A DNA stretch of 31,503 nucleotides from a virus. Numbering within the stretch: the first letter of the stretch is position 1; each line of letters begins with the position of its first letter. Under the pieces are notes generated by a model that was given only the letters and a program-made list of their open reading frames with translations, was not told the DNA's origin and did no database searches. The translations under genes were made by a program, and so were the position numbers. The stretch lies in the IMG/VR virus record IMGVR_UViG_3300027847_000690, positions 1-31,503 of that record; one strand, 5' to 3'. This document shows, in pieces, positions 2,282 to 21,800 of this stretch.

Positions 2282-2285
2282 GGAC

Positions 2286-3788: not shown

Positions 3789-4132
3789 CACTTGCCCATA
3801 TACAGCACTTGATGATGGGTGTTGCCGTACTCGTCGGCCAACGTGTCGACCCTCACAACAGGCGCATGGTTCGAGCCGTTAGGCAGAGTGACCTTGTCCT
3901 GGACTGTTAGCCCCGTAGACGCCACCCAAACAATCCCGGTGTACGACAACGACTGATCGAAGTCAAGTCGCACGGAACCGTTCTTGGCCGTGTACCTACA
4001 CGAATAGGTCGAGGCGCCCGTCGAGAACTCTTTGACGCCGTACAGCGACAGCGACGTCGAGGTCGTCGGCGTGGCAACCGTCAACGTCTGCTTCATCAGC
4101 CCCTTCAGCGAGGCGTCGAGAGCGGCACTCAT
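3788..4132 (-). CDS. Probable head-closure (stopper-type) connector
   Basis: 114 residues beginning MSAALDASLKGLMKQTLTV. Mostly beta after a short N-terminal helix, with TYSCRYTAKNGSVR, YTGIVWVASTGLTVQDKVTLPNG and a final HHQVLYMGK. This is the layout of small beta-barrel head-closure proteins that sit below the adaptor. It overlaps the adaptor gene stop as ATGA. Assignment rests on size, predicted strand content and its place between adaptor and gp10-like genes. Confidence 0.7.
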   Translation of the reverse strand: MSAALDASLKGLMKQTLTVATPTTSTSLSLYGVKEFSTGASTYSCRYTAKNGSVRLDFDQSLSYTGIVWVASTGLTVQDKVTLPNGSNHAPVVRVDTLADEYGNTHHQVLYMGK

Positions 4133-4572
4133 GTCGACGTCGATGTCTCGAAGCGTCCTGTCCCAGGAAGATTGACATTCGGATGGTCGAACTGGCCCTT
4201 GGTGAACGCCGGTGTAGGAATGTCGGAGTCTCGTCTCTGAGACTCCATGTCAGCGACGGAGATCCCACCTGCGTACGGCAGCGCTGACAGCGACCCGGAG
4301 TATCGCAGCGAGCGTTGAACCTGACGCAGATCCAACGCCCGTGCAGACCCTGAGATCGAAATGTCGCCGACGGTCTTGTCGACCAGGCGACCCGAAGCGA
4401 TGATCTGATCGATTGCTCTAGCACCGGCCTCGTAGTTCCCGCCAGCGACCGAGATCAGGTAGTTGATCTCAGCGTCATTCAGGAGCTGGTCTGTGGTGTC
4501 AGTATCACCGATGAGGAAACGGACAGTCGCCAGATTAGACGCCGCCGGATCGCCTGCATAAGTCCAAGCCAT
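4129..4572 (-). CDS. Head-tail adaptor protein (gp6-like connector)
   Basis: 147 residues beginning MAWTYAGDPAASNLATVRF, followed by LIGDTDTTDQLLNDAEINYL, a very recognisable adaptor-protein opening in actinophages: a small helical bundle that binds the portal ring. The C-terminal part is Ser/Asp-rich and extended. Start at ATG 4572-4570 with AAGGA five bases upstream; the frame opens 30 bases earlier but without a good start. It begins the connector series adaptor, closure, gp10-like, terminator that runs to 2498. Confidence 0.82.
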   Translation of the reverse strand: MAWTYAGDPAASNLATVRFLIGDTDTTDQLLNDAEINYLISVAGGNYEAGARAIDQIIASGRLVDKTVGDISISGSARALDLRQVQRSLRYSGSLSALPYAGGISVADMESQRRDSDIPTPAFTKGQFDHPNVNLPGTGRFETSTST

Positions 4573-4580
4573 GATGATCC

Positions 4581-4922
4581 TTATGGTCGAGCGGTCAGCC
4601 AAGCATTGACGACAGTGTCAGTTGACCCTTCAGCAGTCTCAAGAAGGCGGGCATGTCCGACGGTGAAACCGGCAGTCGAATTGAAGAACCGTCCGGCAGT
4701 CGAGAACGTCGTCGCAGCCGACAGGGCAACCCACACATTGCCGTCGAGAGAGCCCTGTATCTGAGCTGACGCTGTGCCAGTTCCGGCAGTCGTCGGCATG
4801 CAATAGGCCGTGAAGTTCGAGTAGCCGCCGTTGAGAACGAACGCTGTACCAGCCCCAGTGGACGTAGTCGCCCGCAAAGACTGGACCGGTCCACCGTTGT
4901 AGTTGATCGCTGTGCGTGCCAT
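4581..4922 (-). CDS. Small beta-rich virion protein, 113 aa
   Basis: Begins MARTAINYNGGPVQSLRATT. Rich in Gly, Ala, Thr and Ser with alternating hydrophobics and the motif IQGSLDGNVWVALSAATTF. That motif looks like a beta-sandwich strand pair seen in phage decoration or minor head proteins. No basic DNA-binding features. It lies eight bases upstream of the adaptor gene. Structural role inferred from composition and place. Confidence 0.7.
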   Translation of the reverse strand: MARTAINYNGGPVQSLRATTSTGAGTAFVLNGGYSNFTAYCMPTTAGTGTASAQIQGSLDGNVWVALSAATTFSTAGRFFNSTAGFTVGHARLLETAEGSTDTVVNAWLTARP

Positions 4923-4940
4923 TCGTCCAGTGTGCCAGAG

Positions 4941-5333
4941 TCAGTCCCCGGTTGTGGGCATGTAGAACGGCGATCTTGATGTGCCGTTGGCGAAGTAAGG
5001 CCAGCCGGGTAGCTGCTCCAACAACCTGTCGGGGACCGGCAAGAACTGGGAGGTGTTGTCCCCGAACGTTGTTATCTCCAACCAGTGGTGCCCTTCTGGT
5101 AGGACGCTCAAGCCCGCTCTGGGCTCGGCGACTCGCCCCTCAACTAGCCAGCGGCGGCACTCGTGGCACAGCTCAGAGACCCCAAGGTCGTCGCAGTCAC
5201 GCAAACATCGCCAGCATTCACCGCTCGTTGACACCCTAGTGAACTCGTCCTCAACGGATTCCTGTGTGGGATTGTCGAGCAACTCAACGACCTGGTCGAG
5301 GAACTCTGCCGCACGGTCAAACGCTCTACTCAT
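4941..5333 (-). CDS. Cys-rich putative zinc protein, 130 aa
   Basis: Begins MSRAFDRAAEFLDQVVELL. The N-terminal 35 residues are helical and acidic. Five cysteines cluster at 40, 43, 47, 56 and 59 (GECWRCLRDC...LCHECRRWL), enough for a zinc knuckle. The C-terminal half (HHWLEITTFG ... FYMPTTGD) carries no recognised motif. It overlaps the end of the double-HTH gene by 8 bp, so the two are probably co-translated and may work together. Function unknown. Confidence 0.72.
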   Translation of the reverse strand: MSRAFDRAAEFLDQVVELLDNPTQESVEDEFTRVSTSGECWRCLRDCDDLGVSELCHECRRWLVEGRVAEPRAGLSVLPEGHHWLEITTFGDNTSQFLPVPDRLLEQLPGWPYFANGTSRSPFYMPTTGD

Positions 5334-5673
5334 CGGCTCGCCTGTCTCCGTCGATCTTCGCCACTATCTGTACACACCGTGCGGGGCTCAAACCGAACCG
5401 GGCGGCGAGCGCCCTGAAGGTCAGACCCTCCTGGCGTGCCTCCCACACTTCCTGGTTCCTTACCTTGAACGTGGGCCGTACCCAGGTTGGTGTCCGCTCC
5501 GGTGGCTTCCCGCCGTGGTCGACGACCCAACGGTCTGCCGATCGATGCCGTTTCTGGACCTCGAACACGATCGTCTGGCATCGAGGCGAAGACAATCCGA
5601 ACTGGGCACCGACCGTCTTGTATGTCAGACCGCTTTGGCGTGCCTCCCATATCTGTTCGTCCCGTGTGTTCAT
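5326..5673 (-). CDS. DNA-binding protein with two tandem helix-turn-helix units
   Basis: 115 residues. Residues 4-42 and 72-110 are clear duplicates: both contain WEARQ-x-GLT, then FGLS-x2-RC and IV, at the same spacing. Each has the length and pattern of a homeodomain-like/sigma-region-4-like HTH (GLTYKTVGAQFGLS and GLTFRALAARFGLS), with a basic Pro-containing linker between them. Start at ATG 5673-5671, chosen because the longer frame overlaps the preceding gene by about 75 bp. A two-HTH protein could bind a direct repeat or bridge two sites. Target unknown; its position among head genes is unusual for a regulator. Confidence 0.82.
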   Translation of the reverse strand: MNTRDEQIWEARQSGLTYKTVGAQFGLSSPRCQTIVFEVQKRHRSADRWVVDHGGKPPERTPTWVRPTFKVRNQEVWEARQEGLTFRALAARFGLSPARCVQIVAKIDGDRRADE

Positions 5674-5684
5674 GGCGTTGGCTC

Positions 5685-6911
5685 TCACGACGTTGGCTCG
5701 GGGACAGCGTCCTGCGATGACAGCGATGCTGTCTTGCGATCGATCCCAGGCATCGACCAACGGTTCAGCCAGTACTCCTGCTCAGCGAAGTTGCCGTTCA
5801 GATATGCGACCCGACCGTCGAGCTGCCCGAGCTGGTTGACGATCTGGGAACGCTGCACAGCCAACGAGTCGATCTCTTTCCTGGCTTCGACCTGGCGGAG
5901 CTTCAACATCTGTTGCATCGGACCGTCGTCCTCGATGCCGTACAAGGCTGCGGTCTTCAACAGGTCCGACGAGTTCCCGATAGTGATCTTGTAACCGAGG
6001 CCTGTGAGGAGACCAATGATCCACTCACAGCTCGGACGCTGAGCCCCATACTCGGTCTCTTGGGCCATGTCGACACCGAACACACCGATCTCAGGGTGAG
6101 GTGGTCGTGGTCCCAGGACCTCAGTTGGATCGTCGCCGTTGTCACGGATGACCTGAGCGTCTCGGAGCCACTTGACGTACACGTCCAACGAGTCGCGCAT
6201 CTCCAACCCGGCGAGGCCGAGCATCCACGAAATCGAGTTCGTCCAATACCGCACACCGCCGTATGCAGCGACGATCGACTCGTGAGGGAACCGGACCGAC
6301 CCGACGATCTCAGGGTTCGGGGTCTTCATGTAGATCACACGTTCGGTCTGTTTCGCCAACCAGTCGACGTGTCCGGTGTTGTCACCGACACCGATCGTTT
6401 CTGTGGCGTGGACATCGAACCAGCGTTCGCATCGATCCCAGTCGATGTCTTCCATCATGTGGAGGTTGTTGAGGCCCCACACTTCGACGCCTGGTGTCTT
6501 GTCTCCCCAGTCGGCTTCGAGGCGTCCGTTGGTGAACCCGATGATGGAGATCTTGTGGGGCTCGACGTCGTGCGGCCGGTATGTGCCGGGCTCGCCTGGG
6601 GTGTCCTTGCGTAGCTGCTGAGGGGTCGCATTGAACATCTCCACTTCGGTGACGCTAGGCGTGGAGTGCTGGTTGCTCCTGTGTCGCTTCATCCCCATCT
6701 CTGAGAGGGTCGTGAAGTCACACTCGGAGCATTGCAGCTCGACCGGTTCAGTCGCCTCAGGCATCGTCGCGGACTCCCTACCCGCACCCGGAGCGAGGAT
6801 CTCGATCTCGACCCCATCCGGGAGGACGAGATCCTCGACGTTGAAAGCGTCGGAGTTGTAGTCGATCCCGGAGGAGTTCGTGAAGGTCGCTTTGGGTGTG
6901 GTGTCAGTCAT
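5685..6911 (-). CDS. Zinc-finger plus Rossmann-like protein, possibly DUF115/Maf-related
   Basis: 408 residues. Residues 61-82 form a C2H2 finger (C61, C64, H77, H82; spacing 2-12-4). From about 120 a Rossmann-like domain begins with HKISIIGFTNGRLEADWGD, then VEVWGLNNLHMM, ERWFDVHA, YWTNSISWMLGLAG, and IGVFGVDMAQETEYGAQRP. A charged helical tail follows (340-385). The G-x-N/D start, the TNSISWML helix and the GVFGVDMA strand recall DUF115 proteins, which include Maf enzymes linked to transfer of pseudaminic or legionaminic acid. This resemblance is remote and by eye; similar proteins occur in phages without such sugars. Placement among head genes suggests a virion or virion-modifying role. 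No strong ribosome binding site. Confidence 0.75.
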   Translation of the reverse strand: MTDTTPKATFTNSSGIDYNSDAFNVEDLVLPDGVEIEILAPGAGRESATMPEATEPVELQCSECDFTTLSEMGMKRHRSNQHSTPSVTEVEMFNATPQQLRKDTPGEPGTYRPHDVEPHKISIIGFTNGRLEADWGDKTPGVEVWGLNNLHMMEDIDWDRCERWFDVHATETIGVGDNTGHVDWLAKQTERVIYMKTPNPEIVGSVRFPHESIVAAYGGVRYWTNSISWMLGLAGLEMRDSLDVYVKWLRDAQVIRDNGDDPTEVLGPRPPHPEIGVFGVDMAQETEYGAQRPSCEWIIGLLTGLGYKITIGNSSDLLKTAALYGIEDDGPMQQMLKLRQVEARKEIDSLAVQRSQIVNQLGQLDGRVAYLNGNFAEQEYWLNRWSMPGIDRKTASLSSQDAVPEPTS

Positions 6912-6941
6912 GGCAGCACCATAACTGACACCTGCACCAGG

Positions 6942-7337
6942 TTAGGCGTGTGTGGTCGCAGCGATCGTGTAGGCATTTAGGATGCCAGCGGTCGAGAGCT
7001 GGACCTGGAGCGCCGAGTCGACATACCAGGCAGCGGTAGACCCGCCGATCAGCGGAACGAACACTGTGTCGTTCAGCTCGGTCGAAGCCGAGATCCGATT
7101 GAACGTCGAGTTCAGGAACACCGTCGCCGACGAACCGGTCTGAACCTCAGCGTTCGAAGACGTCAAGATCAGCATCTTGTGTGTCCCCGCCGCTGAAGGC
7201 GGATCGAGAGTGAAGATCCCGGCGGCACATACGGACGTGCCGTAGCCAACCAGGTTGGTACCGGTCGAACCGGTCTCCACAAAATCGACTGTCCCAAACC
7301 TGTGGAACACTGGCTTCTGACGCTTGGCATTAGACAT
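6942..7337 (-). CDS. Small beta-rich virion protein, 131 aa
   Basis: Begins MSNAKRQKPVFHRFGTVDF. After a short basic N-terminus it is rich in Ser, Thr, Ala and Gly with alternating hydrophobics (HKMLILTSSNAEVQTGSSA, SALQVQLSTAGILNAYTIA), as in beta-sandwich decoration or minor head proteins. Start at ATG 7337-7335 with GAGGG upstream; the longer frame to 7424 runs back into the SAP-like gene. Position three genes after the capsid-decoration pair supports a head role. It resembles the 113-aa protein at 4581 in composition only. Confidence 0.72.
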   Translation of the reverse strand: MSNAKRQKPVFHRFGTVDFVETGSTGTNLVGYGTSVCAAGIFTLDPPSAAGTHKMLILTSSNAEVQTGSSATVFLNSTFNRISASTELNDTVFVPLIGGSTAAWYVDSALQVQLSTAGILNAYTIAATTHA

Positions 7338-7353
7338 GGCATAACCCTCTATC

Positions 7354-7767
7354 TCAGAGACTGGAAGCGGAAACGATCGCCCCGATGATCTCGTCCTTGG
7401 TCTGCGACTTCGCAGCCGGAACACCTCGGAGCTGAGCCCATTCGAGAAGCTGACGTTTCGTCATGGACACCAGGTCAGGCTCGCCAGAACCCTCTGCTGG
7501 TTCACTCATACCGTCATCGAAAACCGATGGCGGCTCATTGACTTCTTCTGCTTCGCCTGTGTGTGTCGAAGGTGTCGACGCAGGAGCCGGTGTGCCGCCC
7601 GCTGCGTCACCCTGAACCAGCTCACCTCGACGCTGGTTCACGAGCTGCTGGGCTCGGCCTTGGGGGAGACCCATAGGGGCAAGGTCGACAACGTCGCCAG
7701 GCTCATAATCGACGCCACGGAGGCGAAGAGGACGGTCGACTCGGAACATCTGAATGGTGTCAGTCAT
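7354..7767 (-). CDS. SAP/HeH-like protein in the head cluster, 137 aa
   Basis: Three parts. Residues 1-52 are a small domain (MFRVDRPLRLRGVDYEPGD ... GRAQQLVNQRRGELV) similar to phage head-assembly proteins. Residues 53-100 are a disordered Pro/Ser/Glu linker. Residues 102-133 are a helix-extended-helix/SAP-like unit (MTKRQLLEWAQLRGVPAAK ... KDEIIGAIV). SAP/HeH motifs usually bind nucleic acid; in phages this architecture is common just after the capsid gene. A head-tail connection or DNA-contact role is an inference. Confidence 0.72.
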   Translation of the reverse strand: MTDTIQMFRVDRPLRLRGVDYEPGDVVDLAPMGLPQGRAQQLVNQRRGELVQGDAAGGTPAPASTPSTHTGEAEEVNEPPSVFDDGMSEPAEGSGEPDLVSMTKRQLLEWAQLRGVPAAKSQTKDEIIGAIVSASSL

Positions 7768-7793
7768 GTCCCGAGTCTAAACCGTGCCGCAAC

Positions 7794-8756
7794 TCAAGCC
7801 GTGAAGCCGGAGATGAACGTGCCGAGCGCACCGGACACAACCTTGTGTGCCCACTCCGACTCGATCTCGACCCTGGTGGCCTTCTGAGTCGGTAGCTCCA
7901 ACGTGGATATGGTCCGGCCTTCAGCGCCTTGCACATCGCCGGTCCACACGAACGTCAAGCCCGCAGTAGGCGACATCAGACCCGGATTCGGGTCGACGTA
8001 GCAGAGCAAAGCGTCGTTCGTGTTGACCCGAGCCATGCTGGCAGCGATGCCCTGTTGTGCAGTGTTGTAAGTCGCACCCGAAACGTGGATGTTGTCGAGA
8101 TCCAACAGTGCAGCCACGTCGGCCTTGGTCGGAGCGGCCGCACCGGAGGTCTGGCCCCGGTCGACACGCCCAACAATGTCCGGGTGGAGCCGAAGCTTCA
8201 ACCAGCCCTTCGAGGTGGTGACAAGAGTCCGAGGTTCGAACCCTGTGTTCGTCTGGATGGTGAGCTTTTGATCGCCTATGAACCCGATCGGGTCAGACGA
8301 GGCAGAGCCCATCTCCTCGAAGTCCGTGCCGCCAGTCACTGTGGTATCCCACGGTGTGCTGGTCATGAAAGTGGTGTGCCAGTCACGCTCACGCTTGATC
8401 AGCTCTTGCTGAGTCAGGATGCGAGTGGCGTCCTGCAGCGGATTGTGAGCTGCGTCAGCGTTCGCTTGAACCCGACGACCGATGTCCATATGGAGAGCGA
8501 ACAACTGTGTCTGGTACGAATCAGTCGACACGGTGTAATCGATACCGGCTGATTCGGTGCCATCGGCACGCTGTCTCATTGAATCTCGGAAGAAGTCAGC
8601 CAAAGCGAATGTGGCGTACTTGTCGGACTGCTTGGTAACAGGCATCCTCGGGAACACCTGGTCGGCCACATAGGCCGTCAGGGACTGGAGGTAGCCCACG
8701 GAGAAGCCAGTCAGTAATGAACTGACATGGACCTCGCTCGCTTGTGGAGATGGCAT
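7794..8756 (-). CDS. Major capsid protein (HK97 fold)
   Basis: 320 residues beginning MPSPQASEVHVSSLLTGFS. Features of capsid-E/HK97-type proteins are visible: an N-terminal arm, VADQVFPRMPVTKQSDKYAT leading into the extended loop, a central stretch where RERDWHTTFM precedes the spine, NTGFEPRTLVTTSKGWLKLR, and a beta-rich C-terminal domain (TISTLELPTQKATRVEIESE, HKVVSGALGTFISG). Start at ATG 8756-8754 with AGGAAGG six bases upstream. Neighbours (protease, scaffold, decoration upstream) confirm the assignment. Length fits a capsid protein without a large pre-cleaved delta domain; scaffolding is separate. Confidence 0.88.
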   Translation of the reverse strand: MPSPQASEVHVSSLLTGFSVGYLQSLTAYVADQVFPRMPVTKQSDKYATFALADFFRDSMRQRADGTESAGIDYTVSTDSYQTQLFALHMDIGRRVQANADAAHNPLQDATRILTQQELIKRERDWHTTFMTSTPWDTTVTGGTDFEEMGSASSDPIGFIGDQKLTIQTNTGFEPRTLVTTSKGWLKLRLHPDIVGRVDRGQTSGAAAPTKADVAALLDLDNIHVSGATYNTAQQGIAASMARVNTNDALLCYVDPNPGLMSPTAGLTFVWTGDVQGAEGRTISTLELPTQKATRVEIESEWAHKVVSGALGTFISGFTA

Positions 8757-8803
8757 TTGTGCCTTCCTATCTTGGTGTCATGCGACCCGTGGGCCGGGTT
8801 GGA

Positions 8804-9187
8804 TCAGGTGGTTCCGATGTTGTCGAGCCTCACGGAGAGAACTCGGTTGGCTGCGCCGGACGAACCGCCGACGATCTTGCCGACGGTGTAGGCACCAGCA
8901 GTCGTGACAGCACATCGACCAGCAGTCGATACGGCCACCATGTTGCTAAGCGCCTGGGTGGACGCCTCAGCCTCGACCATCGCTATGGAACCCATCGGGT
9001 AGATCGGCAACGCACGAGGCGTAGTCGACCCAGTCGAAGACTCCATCGTCACGCCGTCGATGTGACTGGCAGCGGTGGCGTAAGCCAGCTTGCCGGTGGA
9101 GTTGATTGACACGAAGCGGTACCGGCGTAGACCAGTAGTCGCATCGAAGCTCCAAGCGTCTTGCCCCATCTTGTGTTCGAAAGCCAT
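8804..9187 (-). CDS. Capsid decoration protein (DUF2190-like)
   Basis: 127 residues beginning MAFEHKMGQDAWSFDATTG. Small beta-rich protein with VSINSTGKLAYATAASHIDG and VAVSTAGRCAVTTAGAYTVG, typical of decoration proteins encoded directly before the capsid gene. Such proteins bind the outside of the mature capsid and stabilise it. Start at ATG 9187-9185 with a strong AGGAGG about nine bases upstream, consistent with high expression. Ends in LSVRLDNIGTT. Confidence 0.8.
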   Translation of the reverse strand: MAFEHKMGQDAWSFDATTGLRRYRFVSINSTGKLAYATAASHIDGVTMESSTGSTTPRALPIYPMGSIAMVEAEASTQALSNMVAVSTAGRCAVTTAGAYTVGKIVGGSSGAANRVLSVRLDNIGTT

Positions 9188-9239
9188 TTCAGTTTCCTCC
9201 TCGACCGATCAGGTAAACCCTGTCTTGCCGATAGTTGAA

Positions 9240-10019
9240 TCAGGACTCGTCGTGGGCCTTTTGGACCAACTCAGAATTGGAATCGGACAGTTCGAGCAGA
9301 GCGACATACTTCGAGATGCCCTTCTCCAAGCCGATCTTCTCGGCCTGTGCCATGAGCGCAGCCTCAGCCCCATCGACAGACGCAGAGCCGGTAGCCCCGG
9401 CCTCAGCGCCGAGGGTCTCCAGGGCCTTGTCAGCCTGAGCGCCTGCAGCCTTGAGGACCCGCTCGACGAGCTTCGACTCGTCAGAGTCATCAGCCGTAGC
9501 GTCAGCGACAATGGCGAGAACCTTGCCGATGTCGTCTGAAGTTTCGGTGAGCCCTGACATATCGGCCTTGGCGACAGCAACGAACTTCTCTTGGCGTTTC
9601 TCGGCCTTGAGGAGAGCGACCTCTTCGGATGCCTTGACGCCCTTAGCGAGCTGCTCTTGAAGTTCCGGTGGGAGACCCTTCATCAGGTCCTCCACTGACT
9701 CTTCTTCCTCAGGTGCCTCGATGACACCATCGGCAGCGTCGACAACCTCGGCAGGGCTCATCTCCCCAATGGCCTTAGCGACAGCAGCAGCGATAGCTTC
9801 CTCAGTCGGCTCAGCCGTAGTGGCCTCATCGATCTTGGCTTGGAGTTCAGCGAACGCTTCCTGGGTCGCCTCGTCGGCGTCTTCGAGTACAAACATGGTG
9901 GTCTCCTTGTCGAGAATCGCCGGTATGGCTTTGAACATCGTGATGACAGCGCCTGGGTTCTTGCCCTTCCAGGTGCGGTCGACGTTGGTGATAGTGAGAT
10001 CCCTCAAGATTCGGGGCAT
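9240..10019 (-). CDS. Capsid scaffolding protein
   Basis: 259 residues, strongly Ala/Glu/Asp-rich and predicted almost entirely helical with coiled-coil stretches (EDADEATQEAFAELQAKIDE, ELQEQLAKGVKASEEVALLK, SKYVALLELSDSNSELVQK). Acidic, low-complexity helical proteins between protease and capsid genes are normally assembly scaffolds that are cleaved and expelled. Start at ATG 10019-10017 in a TGATG overlap with the protease gene, with GGAGG eight bases upstream, which fits coupled expression. Confidence 0.85.
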   Translation of the reverse strand: MPRILRDLTITNVDRTWKGKNPGAVITMFKAIPAILDKETTMFVLEDADEATQEAFAELQAKIDEATTAEPTEEAIAAAVAKAIGEMSPAEVVDAADGVIEAPEEEESVEDLMKGLPPELQEQLAKGVKASEEVALLKAEKRQEKFVAVAKADMSGLTETSDDIGKVLAIVADATADDSDESKLVERVLKAAGAQADKALETLGAEAGATGSASVDGAEAALMAQAEKIGLEKGISKYVALLELSDSNSELVQKAHDES

Positions 10020-10504
10020 CAGACGACCTCCGCTGAGTTAGCTGTGCCCTCGATACTGAACTCGGTCTTCTCAGTCCGGGAACGCTCGAACGCTTCAGCA
10101 TCAGGAATATGGAATCCACCGAACCAGCCTCTCGGCATGTGCTCGTGGAGTGCCTTGCGGAGAGGCTTGATCACATCGCCTGTCACAGGGTCGACAGACA
10201 TCGCATCGAGGATGTCGTCAGAGAACGTGATGGATGTGATCAGCTCACCGTCAGCGACGCCACCGTCGTGTTCCTCACCGGAACCTCGGGCAGCTTTCGT
10301 GAACTCGTGTGCGGCCTTGGCGAGTTCCTCGACTGGGATGATGTCGCCGTCAGCGTCGATTATGGCTTCGCCGTCAGCGAGCGCACCAACTGAGAACCAT
10401 CCGAAGATGTTCTGGTCGGGGACAGAGGCCTTCGCTACTTGGTAGCTGCCTCCGAGCTGCACAGGCTTGTTCACGGGAACCTTCGATCGATTGATTCGAT
10501 CCAA
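10019..10504 (-). CDS. XkdF-like prohead serine protease
   Basis: 161 residues from the earliest start. Family signatures are clear: IFGWFSVGALADGEAIIDADG (about 33-53), IIPVEELAKAAHEFT, HMPRGWFGGFHIPDAEAFE, and EFSIEGTANS near the end. These match the XkdF/peptidase S78_2-type maturation proteases that process scaffold and capsid in the prohead; Ser in the SIEG region and His in GEEHDGG are the likely catalytic residues. Start is uncertain: TTG at 10504 gives the full frame, but GTG at 10474 has a better spaced GAAGG site and would give 151 residues. The immediate downstream scaffold gene fits. Confidence 0.82.
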   Translation of the reverse strand: MDRINRSKVPVNKPVQLGGSYQVAKASVPDQNIFGWFSVGALADGEAIIDADGDIIPVEELAKAAHEFTKAARGSGEEHDGGVADGELITSITFSDDILDAMSVDPVTGDVIKPLRKALHEHMPRGWFGGFHIPDAEAFERSRTEKTEFSIEGTANSAEVV

Positions 10505-10571
10505 GGCTCTCAGAGGGGCTCGATAGGACTTGATGCAGAGAGTACATGTCTCTCAGCCTGATGTGGGATAT

Positions 10572-11042
10572 CTACCCGGCAGCTCGGTGCATGACACAAC
10601 CCACCCCGGCGATATCCCATGCCGAGCGGCAGTGCTTCAGCACACCCGTGCCTTTCTTCTCTCGTTCCCCGATCAGTTCACCTGGGTACGCAGCCAGAGG
10701 CGCTGAGCCGTGCCCCCCTGGTTCAACGATGTACACAGGGACAGGCCAGGGCCAGGCGCCGATAGCGCCATAGACCACAGCCGTGTCGAGGAGCCCCCCC
10801 ACGTTGATCATCCCCATGTGCGGGTTCGGTTCGGTCAGGCCTTCCAAAGCGATCGCATCGATCTGGTGACCGTCACCCAACTCGAACAATGTTTCCCGCA
10901 TCGCTGCCCCGTACTCGTGGATGGGTTCGTCGTCGTCTCTGATACCGAGCACGTTGACGATCACGTCACCTGTGTGGGCTCGGAGGACCATACCGGTCCA
11001 CTTGCCCCCAGGGTCGACGCCCAACACTGTGAGATCGCTCAT
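10572..11042 (-). CDS. RuvC-like Holliday-junction resolvase / RNase H-fold nuclease
   Basis: 156 residues. The N-terminus LTVLGVDPGGKWTG (Asp10) is the classic first RuvC strand; IDAIALEGL gives Glu67; and HCRSAWDIAGVG provides the final acidic residue Asp143. RuvC-like phage enzymes cut branched DNA before packaging. ATG 11042-11040 overlaps the synthase stop as ATGA; a TTG two codons earlier is less likely. The gene is followed by a 67-bp non-coding gap before the protease, which may mark the end of the cassette. Specific substrate not deducible. Confidence 0.8.
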   Translation of the reverse strand: MSDLTVLGVDPGGKWTGMVLRAHTGDVIVNVLGIRDDDEPIHEYGAAMRETLFELGDGHQIDAIALEGLTEPNPHMGMINVGGLLDTAVVYGAIGAWPWPVPVYIVEPGGHGSAPLAAYPGELIGEREKKGTGVLKHCRSAWDIAGVGCVMHRAAG

Positions 11043-12109
11043 CCCCAATAGTCCGCTTCCTCGACAAGCGCACCTTTCTTTGCGTCTCGGCGTAGACGTT
11101 GCCCTACCAGCTTGGTGAAGTGTTCAGCGCCGACACCTGAGGCTGGGTCTGGGCCTGGTCTCAGGGCGACAAGCCAGTCTGACTTGATGGTGATGCCGCC
11201 TATGGCGTTGACGTTTTCTGTCCAGTACAGACAGCGACGTGCCCCCTTGATCGCAGCCTTCTCACCTTCGTGTGGCCGTTCGGGCCTGTGGCCGTGGGAC
11301 GCCTGCCAGGCTCGGGACGAGGCCTCGACGAACCATCCAAGACTGTCCGAGTCAAGTCCGATCTCGTAATCCGGGTTCTCCCAGTCAGGGTTCGGTTTGT
11401 AATCCGAAGGGAAGGATCGGGTCGGGATGACGTGCTTCTCAATCATCGCAGCGTCGAGAGCGGCGAGCGGTCCAGCCGACCAGGTCCCGAGGGTGTGGTC
11501 GGAGTAGCCGATGTCGACACCGTCGGGGAGTAGCGTCTCTAGCCAGTCCATCCGATTGAAATACGCCTTCTCCGGTTGTGTCGGATACTGGAGTGAGCAG
11601 GCCAGCACGGTGTCGCATGGGCGCAACCCAAGGACCTCGCTTGCCCACACGATGTCTGTGGCTGTGGCCCCGCCGGTGGAGAGAACAATCGGCAGGGTCG
11701 TCCGGCGTGCCGCTATCAACAGTTGCTCGTTGGTGATGTCACCTGATGCGATCTTGATGGCATCAACCCGGACAGCCTGACAGAACAGGACAGCACCCAC
11801 GTCGAACGGAGTGATCAGGAACTTGATGCCGATGTCTTCGCAGTGGTTGCGTAACCCAATGATCTGGATAGGCGTCAGAGACCCGTTGTCGGCGAACACC
11901 TGCTGCTGGCTGCGACCATCGCCGTGCTCCCAATACTTCTCCGCTGCCGGAGAAGCAATCAGCTCCGGTGTCAGCATCTGAATCTTGAAGCCCCAGCATC
12001 CGGCTTCTTTGGCTTCGTCGGCCATGACCTTCGCCAGGTCCAGGTCCTCTCCGAAACATTGGCCTGCCTCGGCGACGACCTTCGGTCCGACCCATGTGTC
12101 CCAGTTCAT
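11039..12109 (-). CDS. Nonulosonic-acid synthase (NeuB/PseI/LegI family)
   Basis: 356 residues, full family length. The N-terminal TIM barrel carries IKIASGDITN (118-127), IVLSTGG (141-147), CSLQYPT (171-177), GYSDHT (201-206) and IEKHVI (223-228), the standard NeuB signature set. A short SAF/antifreeze-like C-terminal domain follows (ALRPGPDPASGVGAEHFTKL ... LVEEADYW). The family condenses phosphoenolpyruvate with a hexosamine to give a nine-carbon acid (sialic, pseudaminic or legionaminic). The adjacent PseG-like domain favours pseudaminic-type substrate, but residue-level specificity cannot be read by eye. Overlaps the upstream mini-gene and the downstream RuvC gene as ATGA. Confidence 0.9.
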   Translation of the reverse strand: MNWDTWVGPKVVAEAGQCFGEDLDLAKVMADEAKEAGCWGFKIQMLTPELIASPAAEKYWEHGDGRSQQQVFADNGSLTPIQIIGLRNHCEDIGIKFLITPFDVGAVLFCQAVRVDAIKIASGDITNEQLLIAARRTTLPIVLSTGGATATDIVWASEVLGLRPCDTVLACSLQYPTQPEKAYFNRMDWLETLLPDGVDIGYSDHTLGTWSAGPLAALDAAMIEKHVIPTRSFPSDYKPNPDWENPDYEIGLDSDSLGWFVEASSRAWQASHGHRPERPHEGEKAAIKGARRCLYWTENVNAIGGITIKSDWLVALRPGPDPASGVGAEHFTKLVGQRLRRDAKKGALVEEADYWG

Positions 12110-12288
12110 GGTGCTGCCTTTATGTCACCGTGCATTCGGTCCCTCATTCCTGTCCGGTGGTGCTGATGCTCAGCCAGTGAGATCCGCGGTCCTTCGCCTC
12201 GACGGCGTCGATGCTCTAGGCAGCGCATCATGTCACGGCTATCGATGCACGGCAGATTCTCGATGTGGTATTCGTCGTCGTCATCCAC
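12106..12288 (-). CDS. Small charged protein upstream of the synthase, 60 aa
   Basis: GTG start at 12288-12286, overlapping the preceding 35-aa frame by 8 bp; the stop overlaps the synthase start as ATGA. Begins MDDDDEYHIENLPCIDSRD and continues with a run of Arg (HRRRRGEG) and many His. Unrecognised. No good ribosome binding site, so it probably depends on coupling. Two perfectly fitting overlaps are the evidence that it is a gene. Confidence 0.55.
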   Translation of the reverse strand: MDDDDEYHIENLPCIDSRDMMRCLEHRRRRGEGPRISLAEHQHHRTGMRDRMHGDIKAAP

Positions 12289-12388
12289 GGGAATTGATCC
12301 ATTGACTGAGCGAGTCCACGGGCTTCGGTCCGGGGATCAAGTACAAGTCGGCGCACCATGATGGTGAGCGTCTGTATGACACCATCAT
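12281..12388 (-). CDS. 35-aa mini-gene between the sugar genes
   Basis: ATG at 12388-12386 overlaps the stop of the 550-aa gene as ATGA, and TGA at 12283-12281 overlaps the next start by 8 bp. The peptide (MMVSYRRSPSWCADLYLIPG, then PKPVDSLSQWINSRG) has a coding-like composition with three Trp/Cys residues and an amphipathic C-terminal helix. No family recognised. It may serve mainly to carry ribosomes across to the synthase. Confidence 0.55.
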   Translation of the reverse strand: MMVSYRRSPSWCADLYLIPGPKPVDSLSQWINSRG

Positions 12389-14037
12389 GTCACCTCGAAC
12401 TCGACTGGCGGACGACGGCGACGCTGTTCCTTAGCCGTCTTCAATATCTCATCACGTATCCGATCCAAACCGTGACCGTCAACACCCTCTTGGAGGAGTG
12501 TCGACGCCTCAAGCCGAGCCGATACCGGGATGAGCTTGGCAACACAGTCCATGTATGTCAGCGACCGGGTCTCGGTGAGCGCCCCTGGCGGTGCCTGGTT
12601 CTCGTTCGCTTCTCGGATGTTCACCGGGATCGAGACCGTCGGCACACCCACATGTGCAGCTTCGTATGCGGTTCGGCCTCGACCGGTGATCACCACATCA
12701 CTGTTCCACATCTCGTAGCTGATCGACGGGTCCTCCAAGACTTCGACACGGGGGTGCAGCTCGGAGCGTTTCACGTCTGAGCCCGGCCCGATGACTGCCA
12801 CAACCGAAACATCGTTGAGCGTCTTAGCAGCCATGAGAGCGTTGCAAACACCGGGAGTCATGTTCGCTGCGTCGGTCCCTCCGAACAGCACCAGGATGCG
12901 TCCCAGCTTCTCTCTGATCGGATAGGGCGGCAGGTACTTGAACTCGTCGCGCACATCGATCCACAGTGGGCCTGATGTCCCGATCGGGAACGTGTACAGG
13001 CCGTTGATTGGTTGGGTGTTCGCATCGACCATCAGGGATTCCAGCCGGACAGTCTTACGAGGCCATTTCGCTGTGATGTCCCGAGTGTCTGTCGTGTCGA
13101 GGGTGTCGAGGACGACAGTGTCGAAGTTGGCCCACAGCATCGAGAGTTCCTCGGCGGTCAGGTTCCCGTGCCGCCATATCCCCGGAACGAGTTTACGCAT
13201 ATCAGGTGGTGTGTCCCAGAAGTACACATCGACCTCAGCGAACGGTGACAGAGCCGAGGCGATCTCGGCTCCTCGGCGTACGTGCCCTGAGCCCATGTCG
13301 TGGTCACCGGCACAGACGATCGCTATCGAGGAGCGTTCCAGGACTAGCTCAGCGGCAGCCATGTCGGCTGGGGTATCGATATCGAGGCCTTCTTCGTTGG
13401 GGATCACGTACGGGTCATGTGCATCGCCGATCATCCAGACAGCGTCACCGTAGTAGCCGTCCTGGTGAGGCCAGTCCCGACATATTTGTAAACCGCCGGA
13501 CTCCCGGAACCGAAGTTCGGACTCGTAGAGGAACTGCCGGTTCACACGGCGCATCGGGTGAGGTCCGTCCTCGGTCCAGGTGTGTGATGTATCAGCGACC
13601 ATCGTCATCGCCGAATCGATGTGGTCGTTCTCAACGAACCATTGGATCATGTCGGTGATCGTCTGCGCCCGGAGCGTCGGCGAGGTGACCTGGTGGACAG
13701 CGACCATGTCCCAGTAGTCGTCTCGGCCTTGTTCCATGACCCATCGCACGAGTTCGTCGAGGGTCTGGTTCGCCATCGCCTGGGAGAGGGGCCGTTCGAG
13801 GACAGCGATCGGTGCGCCGGTCTGAGACCAGAGCTGGGTTCTAGCGGCGACCTCAGGGTCGTTGGTGACGACCAGGATCGAGATCTCCACGTCGAGTTCT
13901 TCGACGGCCTCAGCGACCACTAGGAGCTTCTCAATAGCCCATGCGATCAGGGGCACACCGGCCACTGATCGCACGTTCTTTCTGTGGACCCCGAGCGAGC
14001 CTGCTCGACAGGGGACAATAACCAGGAGCTTCTGCAT
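12385..14037 (-). CDS. Two-domain CMP-sugar synthetase / UDP-sugar hydrolase (PseF-PseG-like fusion)
   Basis: 550 residues, two domains. Residues 1-~232 are a nucleotidyltransferase of the NeuA/PseF type: VPCRAGSLGVHRKN (R11-A-G-S, K20-N21), VHQVTSPTLRA, and GLDIDTPAD (218-225). Residues 236-~545 are a GT-B fold of the PseG type: GSGHVRRGAEIA (249-260, His252 equivalent to the catalytic His), VVLDTLD, ILVLFGGTDAANMT (381-394), and VVITGRGRTAYEAAHVGVPT. In characterised pathways PseG removes UDP from a 2,4-diacetamido sugar, PseI condenses with PEP, and PseF activates the product with CMP, so this protein covers the steps before and after the neighbouring synthase. Both halves look intact. Other UDP-sugar hydrolases/GT-B enzymes are possible for the C-terminal half. 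Confidence 0.85.
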   Translation of the reverse strand: MQKLLVIVPCRAGSLGVHRKNVRSVAGVPLIAWAIEKLLVVAEAVEELDVEISILVVTNDPEVAARTQLWSQTGAPIAVLERPLSQAMANQTLDELVRWVMEQGRDDYWDMVAVHQVTSPTLRAQTITDMIQWFVENDHIDSAMTMVADTSHTWTEDGPHPMRRVNRQFLYESELRFRESGGLQICRDWPHQDGYYGDAVWMIGDAHDPYVIPNEEGLDIDTPADMAAAELVLERSSIAIVCAGDHDMGSGHVRRGAEIASALSPFAEVDVYFWDTPPDMRKLVPGIWRHGNLTAEELSMLWANFDTVVLDTLDTTDTRDITAKWPRKTVRLESLMVDANTQPINGLYTFPIGTSGPLWIDVRDEFKYLPPYPIREKLGRILVLFGGTDAANMTPGVCNALMAAKTLNDVSVVAVIGPGSDVKRSELHPRVEVLEDPSISYEMWNSDVVITGRGRTAYEAAHVGVPTVSIPVNIREANENQAPPGALTETRSLTYMDCVAKLIPVSARLEASTLLQEGVDGHGLDRIRDEILKTAKEQRRRRPPVEFEVT

Positions 14038-14068
14038 GCCTGCACCATACGATGCGGCTGCCCCACGC

Positions 14069-14281
14069 TCAGCGGAGGGACCTCCTGATCGTGAGGTTCC
14101 CGTCTCGGGTCTTCAGGATCGATACCCGGTTCCCGGTCCGATTCCCGGCTCGGCGAATCCTCGATGACAGGTTCACCCGTTCGCCGGGCCTGGCGTGGGT
14201 GAGCACGAGGATGTCCTCGGCCTGGGCCATGCGGGCGACGTCGGCGGGTCGGGCTTTGGCTTCATCGTAGGAGGTGATCAT
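14069..14281 (-). CDS. Small basic protein, 70 aa
   Basis: Begins MITSYDEAKARPADVARMA, continues DILVLTHARPGERVNLSSR and ends in an Arg-rich tail (RRAGNRTGNRVSILKT, RDGNLTIRRSLR). Start at ATG 14281-14279 with GGAGGG upstream; overlaps the previous gene by 20 bp. The frame extends to 14347 without a good start. Possibly a nucleic-acid-binding protein on charge alone; no family recognised. It directly precedes the sugar genes after a 31-bp gap. Confidence 0.7.
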   Translation of the reverse strand: MITSYDEAKARPADVARMAQAEDILVLTHARPGERVNLSSRIRRAGNRTGNRVSILKTRDGNLTIRRSLR

Positions 14282-14507
14282 CGGCGCATCCCTCCTCCAC
14301 CTCGAAGCGCTCCCACCGGGCTTCACGTTCCGCCTGCTGGGCCTCACGAGCCTTAGCCTTGACGATCATTTCGTTGAGGAGGGTCTTGACCTTGGCATTC
14401 CGCTTTGCTGCGTACTGATCGCGGCGGCGGGCAAGCTTGGACTGGCGGGCAATTTCGGCGAGGTCTTCTTCCGCCCGGTAGATGTCTGGTGTTGGTGTGT
14501 TGTTCAT
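14262..14507 (-). CDS. Helical charged protein, 81 aa
   Basis: Begins MNNTPTPDIYRAEEDLAEIA. Almost entirely helical with Lys/Arg/Glu repeats (RQSKLARRRDQYAAKRNAK, KAKAREAQQAEREARWERF), probably a coiled coil. ATG 14507-14505 overlaps the preceding stop as ATGA. The longer frame to 14567 is a shadow of the neighbour. Function unknown. Confidence 0.7.
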   Translation of the reverse strand: MNNTPTPDIYRAEEDLAEIARQSKLARRRDQYAAKRNAKVKTLLNEMIVKAKAREAQQAEREARWERFEVEEGCADDHLLR

Positions 14508-15884: not shown

Positions 15885-18800
15885 TCAGAATCTCGACGGC
15901 CCCCAACCGCCTCGGACCACGATCGCTCGGAGTGGCCTGCCTTGGAGCAGAGCTGCTGTGGCCCTGTGGTGGCCTGACAGGATCAGCGCTGTTTCCCCGT
16001 CCCGAATGTAGATGACTGGCATCCTGTTCCCTGCGTTGTCTGCATCAGCGAACAGAGCACCACCGTCACGGTTGGCCGGGTCCATGTAGTACCTCACGCC
16101 TGGGCTCGTCACGCTCGGCTGTGTGGCTGACAGCATGCGAGGGTCGACCAGCTCGACTGGGCCTTGCTGCCTGATGGCGTCAACGACCAGGTGCTGTTCA
16201 CGATCATGGAACTTCCGGGAGCGTCCTGCCCGAGGGAACGGAATTGCCTGAACCGGAGACCCATCTTCGGGGAACAGGGCCTCCATGTCGTCTCGCCCAT
16301 ACAGCCTGTCGAGGTCCTTATTGATGGAGATGCCGAGGTCGGTCACCTCATCGACGAGGGGTGCGTGGGTTGGGAGGTTCAGAGCGTTGAACGCTTCGGG
16401 GGTCATCGACCAGCGACGGCCTGTCACCTCGTGGTAGCCGGGGCCGTACCAGCGGACCGGAATGTCGATGTCGAGGTCCATGGCGACAGCGATCCTGTGG
16501 TGGCCTTCAGAGATCTCTGGGATGCCGGACTTGGGCACAAAGATCTGGACTGGGACGATTGCTCCTTGTTCCTCGATGGCGTCGTAGAGCCCTGACCGTT
16601 TCGCCTCGGCGAGCTTGTCGGGCATGATCCGTTGGAGCCAGTTGAGCTGCGACGAGGCATCCCTCTTCACGAACGCAGGTGATGACAGGTCCGCTCCGAG
16701 GGCAGTCTTCGGGAACCTGACCTTGGGGTCATCGGAGAGCTGCCATATGGGGAGTGGCACTGCTGTCGGTTCGATGAACTCATCCCCAGACCCAGGGCGA
16801 GGGAGCCCTGTGGTCGGGTCGAGCCCTCGGCGGAGTGGATCATCGAGGATGAGGAGCCCGGACTGGGGATCGATGTCTGGACCGAACAGGGCGGCCTGTG
16901 GCGACCTGGCATACAGCGGATCGTCATATCGGCGAGGTCGGAACATACGGGTGAACTTGGCATGCAGCGGATCGGCAGCTCGGCCACGTAGAGCCTTCGA
17001 CCCGTCCCATTCGACGTTGGCGGTCTTCATGAACGGAACGAACTCGTCGATCTCGTCGAGGAGCCGAACCAAGTTCTCACCGTGCAGCTTCACGTACTCT
17101 TCGGCGGCCCGCAAATTGTCGATATTGACGTCTGAGGCGGAGACACCCAACATGTCGGCGAGCTGTTCACTGGACTCCTGTGTGGTGTTCCTGCTATTCA
17201 GGAACTGGAGGAGAACCCTCGCTGTCTCCCCCTCGTCTGGGGTGTACCCGTACTTGACCCAGGTGTACGCACCGTTGAGTTCGCCACCGGAGACAGCGTT
17301 GACTGTCATCCTGCGATATCCGGCGTCGGCGTAGCGTTGCTCCCAGATCCGCAAGGCGTCTGTGCCGATGCCTTGGCCTTGGATCGCATCGTCGAGGAAT
17401 AGAGACTCGTTGTGGACCTTGCCGTTGAGGAACAGGCGGCGGTGGAACGTTCCGACCTCAGTGCCAGCCTCGTCAATCAGACCACCAAAGACATTGATCA
17501 CTCTGTGGTCCCCGCCGCTGTCTGCAGCATGCACAGACCATTGCATCGTCTTGCCGTTCCGTTCGATTGCCACTTCGAAGATGTCACGACCGAGCCTCTC
17601 CGCCATGGCGAGTAAGGACTCTGCTCCCGGCACCGTAACGACCTCGCTTACCTCTTTGATCTCCGCATGGCGTGCCGGTGGCTCGATGAACTCCGGTGCT
17701 GAACCTGGTCGAGGGCCAGGGATGTCAGCGTCCACTCCGAACGGGTCGAGGCGTTGAGCAGGGCGAGAGGGGATAGAGATCTTCTTCGAGCCACTCCAGG
17801 CGGCATGGTCCTTCGCCCAGTCGCCGAACCCTGGAATCTCATCGAATGCCCGTTGGATGTCTTCGCCGTGGAGGTCAGCGAACATGGCTGCGACCTCAGA
17901 GTTGGTGAGAGCGTCAAGCCCATCCTCGTCGAGCCCGAGGAGGTCTTCCATCTGTCGGACTCTCACCGAATCCCCTCGGAACAGGTTGAGAGCCTTCATC
18001 TCTGGGCCTCGATGAGCGAAGTCCTCGAAGTAGAAGAACTCGTCGAGGAGTCGGTCCATCGTCCCATCGTCAGGTGTGTATCCGTAGCGGCCCCAGGTGT
18101 AACCGCCGTTCATGTTCTCGCCTGACACGGCGTGGACACGCATCGTGTGGTAGCCCTCACGCCCGAAGTTGACTTCCCATTGCTGGAGCAGCCCAGTGCC
18201 GATGCCTTCCCCTTGGATGTCTTCGGTGAGGGTGAACAGGTCGTTGTAGATCGTCCCGTCAGCGTGGATGGTTCTGGAGAACCCACCGAACGAGGTGCCG
18301 AACTCATCAACGACATCACCTGAGACGTGGACCCTGTTCTTGGAGCCCAACCATGAGACCCGGCCAGGCTGCGCCGAGAACGTCCCGGAGTCGCGGTCCA
18401 GTTCAGCGTGGAACAGTGTGTCGGCGAACTCCATGAGGTCAGTGTCAGGGTCAGCGGCCCGAGCAGCGATCAGCTCCTCATGGATCGCCGGTGGATCGGC
18501 GGCGTCTTCGATCATCGCTGCACGCCGGGCCTGAGCTTCGACCGCGATCCTCTGATCTCTAGCGATGATCGAGTCAGTGAGTTCGTCGATCTGACGGTTG
18601 ACCCTGTTCTCAGCGAGGGTCGAGATGATGCGCCCTGGGTCATCGGACCAATGGGTGACCCCTGGGATCTCAGACAGCGGCCGATGTTCCTGCGTCAGAT
18701 GTATCCGAGTGCGGCGCTCGTGAAGGAGGACCAGAGCGTCGTCGAGGGACTGGCCCATCTCTGTGGTGGGCATCGGATTTGCGATCGTCAGCTCATCGAA

Positions 18801-21800
18801 CAGTTCCTGGGGGAGTCTCGTCGTGTCGCCGCTCAGAGCGAACCAGTGCCTGTCGAGCATGTCCCGGCGGAGCCTCTCGACCTCAGCTTCGGTCTCCCGG
18901 AATACGTTGCGCTGCGCTGCGTTCAGCTCATGCACCGGGACACGGCCCAGGTTGTCGCCACCCAGATCGGCGAACTCTTCGAGGAGCCCCAACAGATCAT
19001 CGGTCTCGTCTCGCAGGTCATAGCCGAGCCGTTCGACGGTGAGCTTGGTGTCCAGCTCCATACGGGTCAGCCGGGTCACGTCTTCGAAGTCGATGTCGAC
19101 GATCTCGCCGGTCGTGAGCCTCATCTCACCCATACCGAACACCCGATGTCCCATCACCTCACCCACCTGGTCGGCCCCTCGGACGATCGGGCGGAGAGGC
19201 AGAATGGCGATGTTCTCTGGTGCCAAGTTCGCGAAGAACTCGGCGTTGTTGTTGTGGAACATGACGTCGGTCTTGCCGCCGCCCTCTTCTCGGACACGGG
19301 CGAAGATGCGGTAGAAGTCGAGGCGCTCAGCGGTGTCATGCATCGGGTAGCGCTGGGTGAAATCTCTGATGACTGTGTCATCCATCAGGATCGCTGTCGT
19401 TGTGCCCTTGGTGTTCTTCACATGCTCACGCACCACCACCTCCCACGCATCGGCGTCCAGCTCGTCGCTCAACCCCAGCACCGTTCTCTCCCCGGAGATG
19501 AACTCACGCACCTCATGGAGCCCGTCGAACAGCTCCTCAGCTTGGGCTCTGTCCACAGTGACCGAGATGGTGTCTGTCGCTGTGCCCCCGATGCCGGTGC
19601 CGCCCTCGATCGAGTCACCCAGCTCCTGACGGGTACGCAGCACACCGTCAGCTTCGATCTTGTCGAACGAGGCAGTGACATGGAACATGTCCTCAGGTAG
19701 CGGCTCCCACTCGAAGCCATCAACCCGGTTCACCGCCGGGTCAGGCCATCTGACGGCTGCGTCCTCAGGAGAGATCTTCCCTGTGGCTATGGCGTCTCGC
19801 ACGTCGGCGGTGTGAGTCTGGGATCTGGCACGGTTCATTGCCTGCGCTTCGTCGAGGGCTTCTCGTGCGGCGTCCTCGGCTGCTGTCCCGTCTGCCTTCA
19901 TCCTCTCGGACATCGCATCACCGAATGACTGCTCGTTGAAGTTGTTCGGTGATTCACCTGGCAGACCGTCGTCGACATCCCATCGTTGGGGACGTTGACG
20001 TGGCTCGATGAACTCTTCGCCTGACCCGAAACGGGGTCCCCCAGTGAGAGGGTCGATCCGGTCGAACTGTTCCTGCAACTCTCGATCAACATCGAACGCC
20101 GGGCGGGGGCTGTCTTGGGCTCGGAGCGATGCGACCGCCCGATCCAAGTCGCCGGTCCCATCGAACACATCGTCGAGCCGCTTCAGTGCAGCCTCAGCAT
20201 CATCGAAAGCCCCGAGCGCCTCGAACTCTTTCAGGCGCACCGCACGCAGACGCAAGTCAGGGATGACCGCTGTCCTCGGAATGATCGTCGCCAGCTCACC
20301 GGACTCGATACGGACTTGCTCCCACAGGATCGCCTGGAACCCGTTGAACGTCAGGTCGTCCAGCTCTGGGTCGGCAGCTTTGAGTTTCAGCCATGCCTGC
20401 TTGAACTGTTCATGCATCCACAGGTAGCCGCCCTCGTCACCACTCACACCGAGGTCGATGTTCTTGGGACCCTTCTGGAGGATGTCCTGAGCTGACAGTT
20501 TCTTCGGTTCGCCCTTCGCTGTCAGACCACGCACCAGATCGCCTGGAGTGTGTCCTGGTGTGTCGATCCATATACCGCCTGTGTGTTCAGCCATCGTGGC
20601 TGTGATCGGGTTCTCACCGCCGACAGTGAACCGGTGATCTCCGCCGACGATGCGATACATCCATGTGTCGAGGGTGATGAACCGATCGTCGAATGGGGAA
20701 TCGAAGTTCCAGTAGAACGAGGATCGCTTCACACCGTGGGTCATCATCAGAGCGCCCGGTGCAGGTGAGCGCCATGCGTCGATCGCTAGCTGCAGGTTGT
20801 CCGACGACATGATCGAGTAGCCGTCCTCAGTCATGATCGGGTGCTTGCCTGCCAGGAACCTGGAGTGGATCTGAGACGGTCGCCACATGCCAGGTTCCGG
20901 AACGAACTCTTCGAGGTCGCCACCTGGGAGGAACCTGACCGACTTCTTGTGACGCAGCCAGTCTGAGATCATCTCAGCGGTGATCTCGAACTGTTCGTTG
21001 CGGGCCATGACGGTGACCATGCGGTCAGCGAGAAGTTTGTTGCGTCCATAGTCGAGGAGAGGCGACATCGCTGAGGTGGCAGCGGCGTGGCCCTCGAACG
21101 TCGACGGAACACCGAAGGGGAGATCGGCGATCTCATCGTTGATTATCCGAGTGAAGTCGCTCATCCGTCCAGCTTCGGTGACATACCATGCCTCGTGAGA
21201 TACGACGTCGACCCGTTCCCACATCGTGGCCACGGCGTCTTGGCTGATCTCGCCCGCAGCGACGGCGTCTATCCCCCAAGTCTTCTCGACTGCCTTGACT
21301 CGCTTCGCCCGGTCCGCTGTTGTCATCGTCGGGTTGTTCCAGCCCAGCGACGCAGGGTTGTGGGCTTTGCCTTGCTGAGCGAGGGCGACAGCTTCAGGGT
21401 TGCCGTCCTGGTGGAGCTTGCGGAGTGTCAGCATCGCCTCGTCGATCGCACCCAGAGTCTGCTCAGCTTCCCTCATCGCCACCCTGCGGGTCTCCCGGAC
21501 TTGGGGTTCCCTCCACATCCCCTGGTTGATGTCGAGCTGTGCACGGCGTCCCGTGTTGGGTTTGAAGTCGTACTGCCGATACCACTTCGTGAGCCTCGTC
21601 TTCGATGTGCCCATCGACCCATCGACAGTGAGGAACACGCGGCGCTGTTGTGAGTCGGCGATGTCGATCAGGTCACGCATGAACGCCGATCCGATCCCGG
21701 TGCCTCGAAGCTCTGGGTCTTTGTGGCGGACCATGTTGAGGATGATCGCATCGCCCTCATGTCGGTCGGTGCCCTTGCCGACCATCGGGATGTCGATCTT

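Follow-up and report, generated by a model that had tools for sequence, protein, structure and literature searches.

Nonulosonic acid genes and a predicted sialyltransferase-fold protein in a phage head operon: a putative virion glycosylation module

Nonulosonic acids (NulOs) mark surfaces across life. Flagellin O-glycosyltransferases of the Maf and FlmG types put them on serine or threonine residues of flagellin (PMC7591256), and the spike protein of Halorubrum pleomorphic virus 1 (HRPV-1) bears 5-N-formyl-legionaminic acid (PMC6137143). In mycobacteriophages, phage glycosyltransferases have been linked to glycans on capsid proteins that act as a glycan shield (Freeman et al. 2023, cited in PMC11256854). 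Here we describe IMG/VR record IMGVR_UViG_3300027847_000690, a 31.5-kb linear virus contig (positions 1 to 31,503; hereafter the window, meaning the whole stretch analyzed), in which genes for a fused CMP-transferase/PseG-like enzyme, a NeuB/PseI-type synthase and a probable sialyltransferase-superfamily protein lie among phage head genes. The explanation we favor, with moderate confidence, is a phage-encoded virion glycosylation module in the head operon, which would make a CMP-nonulosonic acid from a host precursor and attach it to a head protein.

The window has three enzyme families and their order of reactions in common with the CMP-pseudaminic acid pathway (PseG, PseI and PseF) of Campylobacter, Helicobacter and Caulobacter. 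The genes concerned are on the minus strand:

12385-14037, minus strand: fused enzyme, 550 aa (PF02348 over cut-off; TIGR03584 and TIGR03590 below cut-off)
11039-12109, minus strand: NeuB/PseI-type nonulosonate synthase, 356 aa, with a C-terminal antifreeze-like lobe (PF03102, TIGR03569/TIGR03586)
5685-6911, minus strand: sialyltransferase-superfamily protein, 408 aa, a probable CMP-nonulosonate transferase judging from its predicted structure (AlphaFold2, Foldseek and VIA)

The predicted route to a CMP-activated nonulosonic acid

A first-pass annotation, made from the letters alone, had placed a PseG-like and CMP-transferase fusion and a NeuB/PseI synthase between the MuF and head genes; both open reading frames lie there and match profiles of these families. 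The synthase belongs to the NeuB family (PF03102, 140 bits against a cut-off of 22.1; E 1.2e-40), and its PDB matches are Neisseria SiaC and Bacillus SpsE. The active-site motifs AEAG, KIQ, STG, GYSDH, EKH and RPG are all present, with ASGD at residue 121, GYSDHT at 201, EKH at 224 and LRPG at 316, in the C-terminal lobe. The protein stays below the equivalog cut-offs of both TIGR03569 (NeuB; 151.6 against 399.65 bits) and TIGR03586 (PseI; 126.8 against 340.25 bits).

In the fused enzyme, residues 1 to ~236 form a CMP-nonulosonate cytidylyltransferase (PseF/NeuA-like) and residues ~237-550 a PseG-like UDP-sugar hydrolase. The first domain matches the cytidylyltransferase family (PF02348, 27.1 bits against a cut-off of 22.6) and carries RAGS..RKN from residue 11 and DIDTPAD at 219, with 32.9 bits to the PseF equivalog TIGR03584 (cut-off 205.7). 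The second reaches 58.1 bits to the PseG equivalog TIGR03590 (E 1e-15; cut-off 153.55), and a profile of this domain built with phage relatives finds C. jejuni PseG ('UDP-sugar hydrolase', 3hbm/3hbn) as its best solved structure (E 6.4e-8). Over profile positions 3-225, GxGH with the catalytic histidine, R-x-EF and GG-x-D align to 3hbm; in the protein itself GSGH ends at H252 and GGTDAAN stands at 386. Caulobacter FlmD and C. jejuni PseG share 22% identity (PMC7591256), so low identity is normal for enzymes of the PseG type. AlphaFold2 modeled the 550-aa fusion poorly (pLDDT 59.5), and the Foldseek matches of this model, to GT-B glycosyltransferases, reflect the general fold only.

H252, GGTDAAN, RAGS..KN, ASGD, GYSDHT and EKH, which the first-pass annotation had singled out as catalytic motifs, were thus all located, and the profile searches it had suggested put PF03102 and PF02348 over cut-off and the PseG domain nearest to C. 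jejuni PseG. Its proposal that hydrolase, synthase and CMP-transferase cover the last three steps to the activated sugar therefore holds as a prediction from families and motifs. Its label 'pseudaminic-type' fares less well: the PseG-like domain makes it plausible, but the synthase scores higher to NeuB than to PseI and misses both cut-offs. None of the enzyme domains reaches its NCBIfam equivalog cut-off, so the matches do not single out one sugar.

Genes for earlier steps (PseB, PseC, PseH and NeuC types) were not found in the window, a linear fragment, which bears out the earlier statement that the first three are absent from it; nor were PseB, PseC and PseH found in 46 kb of a relative (G001) that may itself be a fragment. 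A substrate provided by the host, one of the two sources offered in the first-pass annotation, is a reasonable expectation. In an Ilumatobacteraceae (actinobacterial) genome, L127, genes for an aminotransferase, a PseG-like protein and a NeuB/PseI-like protein directly follow one another, which means that the substrate could be made by some actinobacteria.

Named phage records yielded three NeuB matches only, all distant, one match to the 408-aa protein and none to the fused enzyme, and PHROGs held a family for none of the three proteins. A genome scan with two short patterns only returned no cellular NeuB above 35% identity. A scan of viral contigs found at least 511 stretches with NeuB relatives; among the best 80 loci, 58 had a CMP-transferase match nearby. 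Scanning with the PseG domain recovered only phages already known.

A predicted sialyltransferase-fold protein downstream of the capsid gene

The gene at 5685-6911, overlooked in the first-pass annotation, would be the fourth piece of the system. The C-terminal ~290 residues of its product make up a phage family with neither a Pfam nor a PHROG name, present in >400 stretches of viral contigs in one scan, and the family profile found no solved structure by sequence. An AlphaFold2 model (13 sequences; pLDDT 80.7) gave five top PDB matches in Foldseek that are all sialyltransferases (C. jejuni Cst-I/Cst-II and a Pasteurella enzyme; best E 3.4e-4). In VIA, Cst-I/II scored Z 8.6-9.6 over 153-169 residues with a root-mean-square deviation of 3.5-4.0 (9.6 being Cst-I), and human ST8SiaIII scored 7.4. 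The predicted model thus matches the GT42/GT29 sialyltransferase fold, with archaeal HPPK of the MptE type (8.7) and thiamine pyrophosphokinase (8.3) close behind. Conserved residues of the predicted domain include N39, H59, E178, Y179 and Q182. Two family members, L296 and L145, have sub-threshold matches to PF06002 (CST-I) and to PF01973, the group to which Maf-type domains belong. The modeled structure indicates that the protein likely has a sialyltransferase-superfamily fold, making it a candidate for a new family of CMP-sugar transferases that has hitherto gone unannotated or possibly been misannotated.

Residues ~59-82 resemble a C2H2 zinc finger, although weakly. DNA glycosylation by phage enzymes is known, and a transferase guided by such a finger might place the sugar on phage DNA. 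We regard this as extremely improbable: base-modifying genes were not recognized in the window, the linkage is to head genes, and in the related contig L138 the finger stands instead on a small separate head-region protein encoded between the major capsid protein (MCP) and transferase genes (L138:8244-8483).

Linkage and descent of the cassette in related phages

To gauge how the putative transferase is associated with other genes, we used 79 loci of its family from the viral-contig scan (the window-identical copy left out) and a control of 80 loci found via the capsid family of the window, of similar total length. A NeuB-profile match occurred in 24/79 transferase loci and 2/80 control loci (Fisher p 8e-7), one of the two being the sister phage L134; the comparison is rough, as the control represents one capsid family and most transferase loci come from other phages. 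Without the closest kin the counts were 20/72 and 1/79 (p 1.3e-6). Within the available sequence, 20-21 of the 79 transferase loci had a CMP-transferase match, and one of the 80 control loci had the transferase.

Fifteen contigs have both the putative transferase gene and the MCP gene (L018 and L134 belong to a single contig). In 13 of them the transferase gene lay 622-943 bp downstream of the MCP gene, the exceptions being L136, with a spacing of 6.7 kb, and L074, where it lies upstream of the MCP gene and directly after NeuB. NeuB was present in each of the six loci that include MCP, the transferase and 3.7 kb or more of sequence upstream of MCP. Four divergent phages, L134 (whose contig starts inside the fused gene), L138, L140 and L155, repeated the arrangement of fused enzyme, NeuB, protease, scaffold, MCP and transferase, and L020 kept it from fused enzyme to MCP. 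In the L042 phage (contig G008, 66 kb, which includes L296), PseB-like, PseC-like, CMP-transferase, NeuB and NeuC-like genes lie between MuF and protease, accompanied there by a B12-binding radical SAM gene; the transferase homologue (L296) of this phage follows downstream of the capsid gene. In L136, an asparagine-synthase-like gene (12224-13750; MCGLI start, by eye) adjoins a methyltransferase-like gene and terminase.

A mixture-model tree of 45 NeuBs grouped all seven that are linked to a fused enzyme (window, L018, L019, L020, L138, L140 and L155) in one clade with 100/100 support and no cellular member among the sampled sequences. A second NeuB tree of 108 rows placed the NeuBs of L089, L074 and L042, which occupy the same slot, elsewhere. 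Phages with NulO and transferase genes fell in capsid-tree clades apart from 78 other capsid-matched contigs, including one of the window, L134, L136, L137, L138 and L140 (support 99); L168 was the exception among transferase-only contigs. As read from the NeuB and capsid trees, some lineages have an old cassette that is passed on by inheritance. NulO genes also entered the slot more than once, those of L089, L074 and L042, three other phages with this type of capsid, independently of the fused-enzyme clade.

Repeated entry bears on whether accessory genes in general settle in the slot between MuF and scaffold, with the NulO genes as cargo (morons) unconnected to the virion. Genes for RNA ligase, nuclease and RNase sit in this slot in related Arthrobacter phages, and NeuBs of other lineages occupy it in the three phages just named, as such a site would allow. 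Yet one kind of gene has come to the slot again and again, accompanied by a CMP-transferase on every contig complete enough to show one, and a sialyltransferase-fold gene is on the same contig as the NulO genes of the slot. The cargo explanation therefore seems quite unlikely.

The CMP-nonulosonic acid might alternatively be destined for the surface of the infected cell (capsule, teichoic acid or S-layer glycan), for receptor masking or phage exclusion, with the head-gene position reflecting late expression only. NulOs are known mostly as cell-surface sugars, and GT42 enzymes act on lipooligosaccharide in Campylobacter. Enzymes encoded by Acinetobacter prophages alter capsule NulOs (PMC12053666). 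We nonetheless think this destination unlikely, given that the cassettes, in the window as in its relatives, showed no recognizable flippase, polymerase or membrane-anchored transferase, that altering the surface late in infection would bring little benefit, and that the conserved link, in several phage lineages, is to capsid genes. Both virion coating and a change of the cell surface had been offered as purposes in the first-pass annotation; the transferase beside the capsid gene, the linkage to head genes and the phage-only NeuB clade favor the former, and the latter is less favored.

Several observations weigh against the virion glycosylation module. The 408-aa protein itself matches neither PF06002/CST-I nor any glycosyltransferase family by sequence, and its global TM scores to sialyltransferases in Foldseek are low (0.31-0.39). 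A Microcystis phage homologue (L297, PP496355.1:34781-35584), adjoining terminase genes, is annotated as a type 11 methyltransferase, and that phage has no NeuB match. One phage, represented by L019 and L136, has its NulO genes at a distance from the head genes, and its transferase gene is 6.7 kb from MCP. The missing family match and the methyltransferase annotation would suit a protein that is not a CMP-sugar transferase, for example a methyltransferase-like or non-enzymatic head protein, with a host transferase moving the NulO. This seems very unlikely to us: sialyltransferases come first in Foldseek and in VIA, with methyltransferases far behind in Foldseek, two members touch PF06002 and PF01973, and the family is statistically linked to NeuB. 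The virion module thus remains our preferred reading for the window; for the broader proposal, that several tailed-phage lineages carry their own heritable capsid sialylation module, with CMP-nonulosonic acid genes and a dedicated sialyltransferase-fold enzyme in the head operon that coat the particle, we judge the chances to be even.

Genomic setting, proposed mechanism and comparison with known systems

The other features of the window are as follows:

28920-30353, minus strand: terminase large subunit
27121-27372: WhiB gene (PF02467, E 1.2e-21)
25670-27052, minus strand: portal protein (PF06074, E 3.5e-28)
15885-25673, minus strand: 3262-aa MuF-domain protein, upstream of the cassette (PF04233, E 1.1e-11, and GNAT domains)
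10572-11048, minus strand: RuvC-like protein, overlapping the end of the synthase gene (PF02075, sub-threshold, E 0.022)
10019-10504, minus strand: head maturation protease (PF14550 over cut-off; PHROG matches)
9240-10019, minus strand: scaffold-like protein (by position; homologue in L018)
8804-9187, minus strand: small head decoration-like protein, a putative acceptor (weak match to phrog_673; homologue in the same place in L018)
7794-8756, minus strand: MCP (phrog_1005, E 1.3e-71), candidate acceptor
40-1065, minus strand: GalE, UDP-glucose 4-epimerase (TIGR01179, 400.8 bits, over the cut-off of 262.3)

Small open reading frames lie between the MuF and fused-enzyme genes, two small proteins are encoded between MCP and the 408-aa protein, and tail-type genes followed by GalE lie below position 5685. 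The SDR gene at 40-1065 was considered as PseB and rejected, the gene being GalE. The MuF-domain protein contains two acetyltransferase domains of the GNAT type and, at its C-terminal end, a stretch resembling ParB by eye; it is perhaps a polyvalent, injected protein. A homologue of the RuvC-like protein (55% identity) is found near NulO genes in the related phage L019 (L019:15-338).

The WhiB gene and the portal and capsid relatives in Arthrobacter phages suggest that the host is probably actinobacterial. Genomes of the related Arthrobacter phages are ~60 kb, and since the record is a linear 31.5-kb contig the phage genome is probably incomplete. A second IMG/VR contig (3300031605_000110) has the same arrangement, with 99.992% identity over window positions 1501-14420; because this contig and related phages repeat the gene order, the cassette is not an artefact of chimeric assembly or host contamination. 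Codon-position GC content of the cassette genes equals that of the portal and terminase genes, and this uniform composition gives no sign of recent arrival from a bacterium.

In the mechanism we propose, the host's contribution would be an amino sugar activated with UDP, most likely UDP-2,4-diacetamido-2,4,6-trideoxy-hexose, which PseH makes. Homology and intact motifs predict that the C-terminal domain of the fused enzyme takes off UDP, that the NeuB-type synthase condenses the sugar with phosphoenolpyruvate to a nonulosonic acid of nine carbons, and that this acid is activated with CMP by the N-terminal domain of the fusion. The sialyltransferase-fold protein may then move the sugar onto a head protein during assembly, either directly to serine or threonine, as Maf does on flagellin, or onto a sugar already there. 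Cst enzymes use galactose, and GalE could, speculatively, provide Gal or GalNAc as the acceptor sugar; it is possibly an accessory supplying UDP-Gal/GalNAc, its membership of the system being uncertain. The outcome would be an acidic sugar coat on the particle, conceivably of use in adsorption, camouflage or stability. If so, a capsid with phage-made NulO would tie phage assembly to recognition of the sialic-acid type, with consequences for adsorption, for attachment to mucus or particles and for the way lectins or immune systems recognize the phage.

Unlike the CMP-pseudaminic acid pathway, the window has its CMP-transferase and hydrolase fused and its genes in a phage head operon, with PseB, PseC and PseH not found and all domains below the equivalog cut-offs. 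The likeness to Maf and FlmG lies in a cytoplasmic transferase, putative in the phage, that would put a NulO onto a self-assembling structural protein; since these systems show that one cytoplasmic transferase can suffice, the absence of further glycosyltransferases does not speak against virion glycosylation. The window protein differs in having no significant sequence match to them and in its target, which would be a phage head protein. GT42 Cst-I/Cst-II are the best fold match to the model of the 408-aa protein, which differs from them in lacking a PF06002 match and in an added zinc finger and C-terminal helix. HRPV-1 is likewise a prokaryotic virus, and its particle bears a NulO, as is proposed for the phage; HRPV-1 encodes none of the pathway, and its archaeal host is thought to make the sugar (PMC6137143). 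The account of the mycobacteriophage work in PMC11256854 does not describe phage-made CMP-nonulosonic acid. Our literature search, a weak test that covered few subscription journals, returned no report of a tailed phage that encodes both CMP-NulO synthesis and a transferase in its head operon. Virion glycosylation as such is known; a phage cassette for making a nonulosonic acid, with its own transferase in the head operon, would probably be a new form of it.

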